In this document: one piece after another, positions 40,933 to 50,226 of the stretch
Layout of the letters: each line of letters starts with the position of its first letter
Numbering within the stretch: the stretch's first letter is position 1
Origin: Thermococcus sp.
GTDB taxonomy: Archaea; Methanobacteriota_B; Thermococci; Thermococcales; Thermococcaceae
Direction of reading: 5' to 3'
DNA: 58,018 nucleotides
Assembly (NCBI RefSeq): GCF_027011145.1
Contig: NZ_JALVAO010000048.1
Coordinates: 1-58,018 of the forward strand
The notes under the pieces: model-generated
Database searches by the model: none
What the model was told of the DNA's origin: nothing
The model's input: the letters and a program-made list of their open reading frames with translations, nothing else
Made by a program: the position numbers and the translations under genes

Positions 40933-41256
40933 GGCGAGGGGGTCGGGGGCCCTCGGGGTGCTCCCGAGGAAGTTCCGCCCACCGCACCGGGGCCGCGGTG
41001 CCGCAAGGCACCTCCCGAGAGGGAGGGCAACGGCGCAGAAACGACACGGCCCCCGGGGAATGTGGATGACGCGTGCGAAGGGCCCGGCGACGGGCACCGA
41101 GCTAACCCGCAGACAATCCCGGGGGATGCGGTGAAACGGCCGTCCCGCGGGGTGCAAGGCCGAGGAAGGGGCAATGAGTTCCCGGTGCGAGCCCCGTGGT
41201 AGGCCGCTCAGTCGAATGCCCCCTTGATACAGAAGGCGGGCTACGACCCCCTCGCC
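40933..41256 (+). ncRNA. rnpB: RNase P RNA (type A archaeal)
   Basis: About 324 bases, very GC-rich, not protein-coding on the plus strand. The first 12 bases GGCGAGGGGGTC pair exactly with GACCCCCTCGCC at 41245-41256 to make stem P1. Conserved core features are present in order: GAGGAAGTTCCGCCC near 40968, CAGAAACGACAC near 41036, AGGCCGAGGAAGGGG near 41157, and the final GAATGCCCCC with ACAGAAGGCGGGCTACGA near 41229. It is the catalytic RNA that cuts the 5' leaders of tRNA. The Pop5 protein partner is encoded at 56692-57054. Its last 16 bases lie within the convergent permease gene. Confidence 0.97.
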
Positions 41257-47994: not shown

Positions 47995-49185
47995 ATGGCG
48001 AGGGTTATAGTTGACGCTCAGGCCGCGAGGGCCATCGGAAAGGGCGCGATGATAGTCTTCAAGAAGGGTGTGGTGAGAACCGAGGGCGACTTTGAGCCCG
48101 GTGACATCGTTGAGGTCTACACGCGCGGTGGCAAGTTCCTCGGGAGGGGTTTCGTTAATCCGAACTCAAACATAATGGTCCGCCTGCTCATCAAGGACAG
48201 GGAAACGCCCATAACGAAGGAACTATTCCGCGAGAGGATTAGGAAGGCCAACGAGTACAGGAAGAAGGTGCTCGGCTACGATAAAGCTTACAGAATGGTT
48301 TACGGCGAGGCCGACTACCTTCCGGGCCTCATAGTTGACCGCTTCAACGAGATTGCATCGCTCCAGATTTCGAGCATTGGAATGGAGCGCTTCAAGCTCG
48401 ATTTGGCCGAGGCAATAATGGAAGCTGAACCAGAAATCGAGACCGTTTTCGAGAAGAACACCGGGCGCTCAAGGCGGAGGGAGGGTTTGCCCGAGATAGA
48501 GCGCGTCCTCCTCGGAAAGGAGAAGTACAGGACGATAATAGAGGAGGGCAGGGCCAAGTTCATCGTCGACATGCGTGGCCAGAAAACCGGCTTTTTCCTC
48601 GACCAGAGGGAGAACAGAATAGCCCTTGAGAAGTACGTCAGGCCCGGAATGAGGGTCCTCGACGTCTTTACCTACACCGGTGGCTTTGCAATCCACGCCG
48701 CCGTTGCCGGGGCCGAGGAGGTTATTGCCGTTGACAAGTCCCCCAGGGCCATAGAAACCGCCAAGGAGAACGCCAAGCTCAACGGCGTCGAGGACAGGAT
48801 GAAGTTCATAGTAGGTTCGGCCTTTCCAGTCATGGAGGAACTCCTCAGAAAGGGCGAGAAGTTCGATATCGTAATCCTTGACCCGCCTGCCTTCGTCCAG
48901 CACGAGAAGGACCTCCAGCGGGGACTCAGGGCTTACTTCAACGTCAACTACGCAGGTTTAAAGCTCGTTAAGGAGGGTGGAATCCTGGTTACGTGCTCCT
49001 GCTCCCAGCACGTTGACCTGCAGGCCTTCAAGGACATGGTAATCGCCGCGGGGGCCAAGGCCGGGAAGTTCCTCAAGATGCTCGAACCATATAGAACTCA
49101 GGCTCCCGACCATCCGATTCTCATGGCCTCGAAGGACACCGAATACCTTAAGTGCCTCTTCCTATACGTAGAGGATATGAGGTGA
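47995..49185 (+). CDS. RlmI-like PUA-domain SAM methyltransferase
   Basis: 396 residues. A PUA domain (residues 1-75; GVVRTEGDFEPGDIVEVY) is followed by a linker domain (YRMVYGEADYLPGLIVDRF) and a Rossmann methyltransferase: VLDVFTYTGGFAIHAAVAGA, VIAVDKSPRAIE, ILDPPAFVQHEKD and TCSCSQHV. The TCSC Cys fits an RNA 5-methylcytosine mechanism as in RlmI. Likely an rRNA m5C methyltransferase; the target base is unknown. I chose the ATG at 47995, after GGTGGTGAG, with TTTTTTAAACC at about 47956-47966 as TATA box. Confidence 0.88.
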   Translation: MARVIVDAQAARAIGKGAMIVFKKGVVRTEGDFEPGDIVEVYTRGGKFLGRGFVNPNSNIMVRLLIKDRETPITKELFRERIRKANEYRKKVLGYDKAYRMVYGEADYLPGLIVDRFNEIASLQISSIGMERFKLDLAEAIMEAEPEIETVFEKNTGRSRRREGLPEIERVLLGKEKYRTIIEEGRAKFIVDMRGQKTGFFLDQRENRIALEKYVRPGMRVLDVFTYTGGFAIHAAVAGAEEVIAVDKSPRAIETAKENAKLNGVEDRMKFIVGSAFPVMEELLRKGEKFDIVILDPPAFVQHEKDLQRGLRAYFNVNYAGLKLVKEGGILVTCSCSQHVDLQAFKDMVIAAGAKAGKFLKMLEPYRTQAPDHPILMASKDTEYLKCLFLYVEDMR

Positions 49186-49251: not shown

Positions 49252-49416
49252 ATGAGTTTAGGGGAGACTCTTCCTCCTTGGGCTTTAAGCAGAATAAGGG
49301 ATGAAGAGCAAAAGCTTGAGCATAATCGAGGGAGTAGAAGCAAAGACGAAGACCTTTCCAAAATCTTGCTTAGGGGTTTTAAGAGACTGATCAAGAAGCT
49401 GAGAAATTGGAGTTGA
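49252..49416 (+). CDS. Small ORF, 54 residues, basic, unknown function
   Basis: MSLGETLPPWALSRIRDEEQ opens a 54-residue ORF with a Lys/Arg-rich end (RGFKRLIKKLRNW). GGAGAGG at 49242-49248 gives a proper ribosome site and TTTATTTAC at about 49212-49220 a plausible TATA box. A C/D box RNA candidate starts 9 bases after its stop. The ORF may be a real small protein, or only a transcribed leader of the RNA; no homologue was recognised. Confidence 0.45.
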   Translation: MSLGETLPPWALSRIRDEEQKLEHNRGSRSKDEDLSKILLRGFKRLIKKLRNWS

Positions 49417-49424
49417 TAATTCTG

Positions 49425-49483
49425 GGACGATGACGAGAAAGCACCTCCTCTGAGCGGTGAGGAGACGCCCACGGTCCGAGTCC
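49425..49483 (+). ncRNA. Candidate C/D box guide sRNA
   Basis: About 59 bases with the full order of parts: a terminal stem GGAC 49425-49428 with GTCC 49480-49483, a C box ATGACGA 49430-49436 (consensus RUGAUGA, one change), a 13-base guide, D' box CTGA 49450-49453, a 3-base spacer, C' box GTGAGGA 49457-49463 (one change), a 12-base guide, and D box CCGA 49476-49479 (one change from CUGA). Spacer lengths match archaeal box C/D sRNAs. It would guide two 2'-O-methylations. It ends exactly at the stop codon of the opposite-strand methyltransferase gene. Three off-consensus boxes lower the certainty. Confidence 0.6.
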
Positions 49484-50226
49484 TATAATTTTAAAATCAG
49501 GCTGTGCCTCCACCTCGTCCCGGCCCTGAACCTGACGTCCCTGATTTCGTACCCTAGTTCCTTTCCCCTTTCCTCAATTGCCCTGAGTAGCGGTTCCTTG
49601 TCCGGCAGAAAGAGGGCGACTTTTCCGCCGGGCTTCAAATAATTCAGCGCTTCTTTGATAAGCCTTATGGAAAACTCCTCACCGTACTTTCCACCCCCGA
49701 GACCTTCCCTCTCCGTCAGAACACCTCTGGTGGGTCTCTTGTAGTAGGGCGGGGCGGAGAAAACGACGTCAAAGGACTCCCCCTCTGGAATAACACCCCT
49801 TATTATCCCCCCGTTGCTCCTGATTAGCCTCACCCGGGCGTTGTTCCTCTCGATGTTCCTCCTCGCGTATTCAAAAAACTCTTCATCGAGCTCCGTTGCT
49901 GTAACATTACAGCGGAAAATCTTCTCGGCAATCAGTGCCATTAGGGCGGTATGCCCGGTTCCTACCTCCAGAACCCTCTCACCGCCCCTCAGGAACGTCT
50001 TTAAGAAGAGGTAGCGCGATACTGGTGTCGTGACGAGTCCCCGCGGGTGGTACTCAATTTCGAGGCCGAAGAGCGCCTTTGCCACCGCCCTGTTGTAGAG
50101 GATTCTCGCCCTCCTGTTCGAGAAGTCGAGCCTTCCGCGCTCGTCGAGGTATTCTCTAAGTTCGGGGAACAGCTTGACCGCTTCCTCTATCGGCAGTCCG
50201 AGTTTGCCGTCCTTCCAGAGAACCAT
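49483..50226 (-). CDS. RlmF/METTL16-like SAM methyltransferase
   Basis: 247 residues. A helical N-terminus (GLPIEEAVKLFPEL) is followed by a Rossmann methyltransferase with VLEVGTGHTALMALIAEKI, ATELDEEFFEYARRNIE and a catalytic loop SAPPYYKRP in place of the usual N/D-PP-F/Y. The layout matches archaeal relatives of RlmF, which methylates an adenine N6 in 23S rRNA. The substitution at the loop makes the exact activity uncertain. Start ATG 50226; no clear ribosome site, and the message may be leaderless. Confidence 0.75.
   Translation of the reverse strand: MVLWKDGKLGLPIEEAVKLFPELREYLDERGRLDFSNRRARILYNRAVAKALFGLEIEYHPRGLVTTPVSRYLFLKTFLRGGERVLEVGTGHTALMALIAEKIFRCNVTATELDEEFFEYARRNIERNNARVRLIRSNGGIIRGVIPEGESFDVVFSAPPYYKRPTRGVLTEREGLGGGKYGEEFSIRLIKEALNYLKPGGKVALFLPDKEPLLRAIEERGKELGYEIRDVRFRAGTRWRHSLILKL

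Follow-up and report, generated by a model that had tools for sequence, protein, structure and literature searches.

According to reviews, the ribose methylations that box C/D guide RNAs direct in archaeal tRNAs lie at positions 34, 39 and 56, and Um44 is a mark of eukaryotes only, made there by Trm44, the eukaryotic tRNA-Ser Um44 methyltransferase (PMC9957541, PMC5372725). A review of conserved guides has also noted the accelerated evolution of guide sequences. In Thermococcus kodakarensis, a 71-nt RNA at 1593064-1593134, represented by 7,565 reads, is tabulated only as ncRNA03, with no C/D alias (PMC9014305, Table 1); its circular reads numbered 403 in the wild type vs. 1 in an RNA-ligase knockout (PMC9014305). 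The RNA described here lies in a stretch of 58,018 nucleotides from Thermococcus sp. (the window). It belongs to a family that has been catalogued before, RF01128, and is as an RNA ordinary; what is added beyond the catalogued RNA is a proposed pair of targets. Our overall reading, an sR43 C/D sRNA guiding methylation of both 16S G1050 and tRNA-Ser U44, appears quite probable.

The RNA occupies 49424-49484 on the forward strand, and we regard its assignment to the archaeal box C/D guide RNAs as practically certain. Read from 5' to 3' it runs GGGAC-G-ATGACGA-GAAAGCACCTCCT-CTGA-GCG-GTGAGGA-GACGCCCACGGT-CCGA-GTCCT, comprising the 5' strand of a terminal stem (49424-49428), a single-base linker G (49429), a C box that fits RUGANGA and is conserved in position (49430-49436), a 13-nt D' guide (49437-49449), the D' box (49450-49453), a D'-C' spacer of 3 nt (49454-49456), the C' box (49457-49463), a 12-nt D guide (49464-49475), a D box that is a variant of CUGA (49476-49479), and the 3' strand of the stem (49480-49484). 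This is the architecture of archaeal box C/D sRNAs, with C, D', C' and D in order (the D box in its variant form CCGA), guides of about 10-13 nt, and a terminal stem adjoining the C and D boxes as in a k-turn. An earlier note, in which raw sequence alone was read, had located a genuine 59-nt guide RNA here with correct box borders, and every box, guide and spacer stands where it was claimed to be; the 4-bp terminal stem of that note is also present, the actual stem (49424-49428 with 49480-49484) having five pairs, one G.U among them. A scan of both strands for the full layout, in which four or more terminal pairs were required, found this single site in the whole window and no site in any of 100 first-order-Markov-shuffled windows.

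A covariance-model match to RF01128, the Rfam family sR43, described there as "Small nucleolar RNA sR42" (CD-box), extends over 49425-49481 with 69.5 bits (E 1.9e-14; gathering threshold, 45 bits) and spans the model completely (1-56 of 56, not cut off); the next-best Rfam model for 49424-49484 was snoPyro_CD, the general Pyrococcus C/D model, at a lax threshold. The window RNA resembles the family in its whole length, its boxes and both guides, and differs slightly in the C box ATGACGA, the spacer and C' box GCG-GTGAGGA, and the D box CCGA. Within the host's taxonomic family, Thermococcaceae, 89 of 94 genomes, representing all six genera, carry RF01128 (73 of the 74 genomes of good quality), and an earlier search of relatives had recovered it in 34 of 37 same-genus genomes, the window's own counted; none of 24 more distant genomes outside that taxonomic family carried it. 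From these matches 88 orthologs were parsed, with D boxes of the form CTGA, CCGA, CGGA or CAGA, CCGA being common. Their terminal stems include the compensatory pairs GGGAC/GTCCC, GCCGC/GCGGC, ACCGC/GCGGT, TGGCA/TGCCA and TAGCG/CGCTA, in a parse that picked the D box by stem length and so somewhat inflates the count of paired stems. Because the stem changes on both sides together, these exchanges indicate selection on the structure of the RNA. The Rfam match, the conservation and the covarying stem bear out the class that had been proposed for this RNA, whose boxes, the note had allowed, might have proved unconserved in relatives.

Transcription is documented for an ortholog. Genome G011 contains an exact match to the T. 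kodakarensis TK1545-locus primer of PMC9014305, and its sR43 copy, at 1593071-1593134, falls within the coordinates of ncRNA03, so that the RF01128 match lies inside the 71-nt RNA. Because the two coincide, the T. kodakarensis sR43 ortholog is transcribed and is circularised in a ligase-dependent manner; the reads and circular reads that bear on a small stable transcript are those of this ortholog only. The two RNAs differ in the D'-C' spacer, which in T. kodakarensis, and in many Thermococcus relatives, measures 11 nt and in the former can pair with the D guide, whereas that of the window RNA measures 3 nt. An internal hairpin between spacer and D guide, for which 34 of the 88 orthologs have a 4-5 bp match at the box edges, was considered as a feature of the family and rejected because the window RNA lacks it.

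Pairing of the D' guide was sought in the 16S and 23S rRNAs of relatives, because no rRNA genes of either kind were found in the window's own assembly. The guide forms nine Watson-Crick pairs with AGGAGGUGC in the 16S rRNA of three relatives; in one of them, G008, this string is 16S 988-996, aligned with positions 1046-1054 of E. coli (helix 34), and its fifth base is G1050. Where a variant D' guide has T at position 10, the pairing continues to the next A of the 16S rRNA; 93 of 1000 shuffled guides (~9%) do as well as the window's own. The segment GCACCTCC of the guide is invariant in 88 of 88 parsed orthologs, in part by construction, as the parse required it and the matches were chosen by the Rfam model. 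To judge from this pairing, the D' guide would direct 2'-O-methylation of a helix-34 base of 16S rRNA, G1050 in E. coli numbering.

The D guide, through its positions 2-13, forms 12 contiguous pairs (11 Watson-Crick and one G.U) with tRNA-Ser GGA, CGA and UGA of the window's own genome, covering nt 41-52 of the tRNA, a span that starts in the anticodon stem and runs on into the variable arm. Seven genomes of genus g12 show 11-12 Watson-Crick pairs in the corresponding duplex. The N+5 base is U44, except in four genomes (G074, G075, G079 and G080; loci L204, L205, L208 and L232) in which the D box is set off from the D guide by an extra base (ACGGGC-CCGA), so that the N+5 base would shift by one. 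Judged against shuffled guides, the match in G008 was equalled 176 times in 1000; with the RNA set of that genome, the score of 10 obtained in the window's genome was reached by 43 of 1000 (~4%), and the score of 12 of the best Pyrococcus-type guides of g12 (12 Watson-Crick pairs) by 1 of 1000 (~0.1%). The two strings predicted earlier from the N+5 rule, AGGAGGUGC with G as its fifth base and ACCGUGGGCG with U, have both led to sensible targets, helix 34 of 16S rRNA and the 3' anticodon stem and variable arm of tRNA-Ser, with 9 bp in the 16S rRNA of relatives and 12 bp in three serine tRNAs of the same genome, each match taken alone being modest by comparison with shuffles. The D guide would, on this pairing, direct 2'-O-methylation of U44 in tRNA-Ser GGA, CGA and UGA.

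Both the guide and a serine tRNA were available for 61 genomes; 45 of these retain the core of the D guide, CGCCCACGG, and every one of the six genera includes at least one genome that does so. Among the 45 genomes whose core is intact, 44 preserve the target in tRNA-Ser(GGA), vs. 6 of the 15 whose core is altered (Fisher p 3e-6, kinship ignored). A tree-based test of the pair, run on the phylogeny of the neighbouring gene with about six changes per trait, gave the expected direction and was far from significant. The genomes in which the D guide has changed and the target is nevertheless kept are G004, G007, G010, G027, G089 and G102; in G003 the core is intact and the target has changed. Because the link between guide and target rests on some six changes per trait, with a pair test that is not significant, we grade the predicted Um44 of tRNA-Ser as likely only, clearly above an even chance. 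Part of Thermococcus has lost the D guide, an instance of accelerated guide evolution. Some genomes of this genus (loci L025-L031, L099-L101) have the D guide replaced and the D' guide kept. The new segment and the D'-C' spacer are able to pair (ACCCG/CGGGT), which gives the D side the look of a guideless hairpin. The replacement guides AAACGGGT and AAAAAGGGT, with a best match of 8 bp at 23S 2944, were left as orphans.

Taken as a pair, the targets 16S G1050 and tRNA-Ser U44 are fairly probable on the strength of complementarity. Their main competitor accepts the sR43 C/D sRNA and assigns it other targets, with a 23S rRNA site (2716-2724 in G008) for the D' guide and/or the 16S string ACCGUGGG (565-572) for the D guide, or with a guide that is an orphan. 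The D' guide does form nine Watson-Crick pairs with 23S 2716-2724 in both of the genomes G008 and G004, there are eight for the D guide at 16S 565, and shuffle tests fail to single out the preferred targets; however, the 23S site becomes a G.U form, and a poorer match, in G005 and G015, guides with T at position 10 pair worse with 23S rRNA than with helix 34, and the match at 16S 565 is shorter than that with tRNA-Ser. This leaves other targets unlikely, if the least so of the alternatives. A different emphasis would make the guides mainly RNA chaperones that keep helix 34 or tRNA-Ser precursors open, with methylation secondary; such roles for C/D sRNAs are discussed in PMC7994747, but the canonical boxes and spacers suit a methylation guide, and we hold a predominant chaperone role to be improbable. 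RNase P RNA, also considered as a guide target, gave no match worth keeping.

The D' guide contains CACCTCCT, a string that also forms the 3' end of 16S rRNA; the earlier note had correctly pointed out this resemblance to an anti-Shine-Dalgarno sequence and had called the choice odd, an oddity that disappears with the presence of AGGAGGUGC in 16S helix 34. Predicted pairing with helix 34 would explain CACCTCCT with no need for Shine-Dalgarno pairing. That the guide instead masks Shine-Dalgarno sequences of mRNAs, as an anti-Shine-Dalgarno mimic, is exceedingly improbable: the part that is kept is GCACCTCC, the last base being A in many genomes, and a fixed rRNA target fits this better. Nothing in this analysis points to ribosome-binding sites of mRNAs as targets, and we know of no mechanism by which such a guide masks them. 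A pattern search of six genomes for GGAGGTGCTTT and ACCGTGGGCG gave few matches, and six places in G008 that were inspected from it held no obvious non-coding RNA target. That the likeness arose by chance, or that this is a dead copy yielding no RNA, is hardly more credible, though the D box CCGA in place of CTGA might lend it colour; against this stand the Rfam E-value of 1.9e-14, the conservation, the covarying stem, the transcribed ortholog and the frequency of CCGA among orthologs.

The C/D and C'/D' motifs of the sR43 guide RNA would be expected, from established knowledge of C/D sRNPs, to bind L7Ae, Nop5 and fibrillarin. The predicted product, Um44 of serine tRNA, is shared with Trm44 (PF07757), which differs in being a protein enzyme that uses no guide RNA. 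A search of seven Thermococcaceae genomes for PF07757 gave no match, in a search whose control likewise matched nowhere. Archaeal C/D guides for Cm34 and Um39 of tRNA-Trp and for Cm56 of tRNAs likewise guide ribose methylation of tRNA, at other positions. No prediction of Um44 in archaea was found in the literature searched, outside which lie the primary tables of Pyrococcus sRNAs (Gaspin 2000) and the maps of P. furiosus tRNAs (Wolff 2020); the serine-tRNA target of sR43 seems to be the sole part absent from the literature so covered. If the targets are true, the RNA named only ncRNA03 in PMC9014305 gains a function, and Um44 becomes, like Cm56, a tRNA modification for which some organisms use a protein and others a C/D RNA guide. 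A broader proposal may be ventured, to which we give an even chance: a single dual-guide sRNA of Thermococcaceae would mark both 16S helix 34, beside C1054, and U44 of tRNA-Ser, an archaeal RNA guide thereby producing the Um44 for which eukaryotes rely on the stand-alone protein Trm44, and the tRNA half would have been lost from some lineages of Thermococcus, often alongside a change in tRNA-Ser(GGA).

A gene for an RlmI-like methyltransferase immediately precedes the sRNA in most relatives, and the other flank of the sRNA often carries another methyltransferase gene, in convergent orientation. The window has both: upstream, on the forward strand, a PUA-domain 23S rRNA (cytosine-C5) methyltransferase-like (RlmI-like) protein is encoded at 47998-49185, and downstream, on the reverse strand, a SAM methyltransferase-like protein at 49483-50226, the stop codon of which abuts the sRNA. 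The distance from the end of the RlmI-like gene to the sRNA, 238 bases, exceeds that in most relatives. The sRNA is probably excised from a longer transcript reading through from the upstream methyltransferase gene or from the gap. The note had placed the RNA in a gap with no gene, which holds for annotated genes; the gap is not quite empty, as its enlarged part upstream of the sRNA contains a forward-strand ORF of 54 aa (49252-49416), which had no family match and no homolog at related loci. GGAGAGG stands ahead of the ATG of this ORF, and a TATA-like CTTTTATA lies further upstream. Elsewhere in the window, at 40934-41255 on the forward strand, is an archaeal RNase P RNA gene, with a full-length Rfam match of 194.7 bits.
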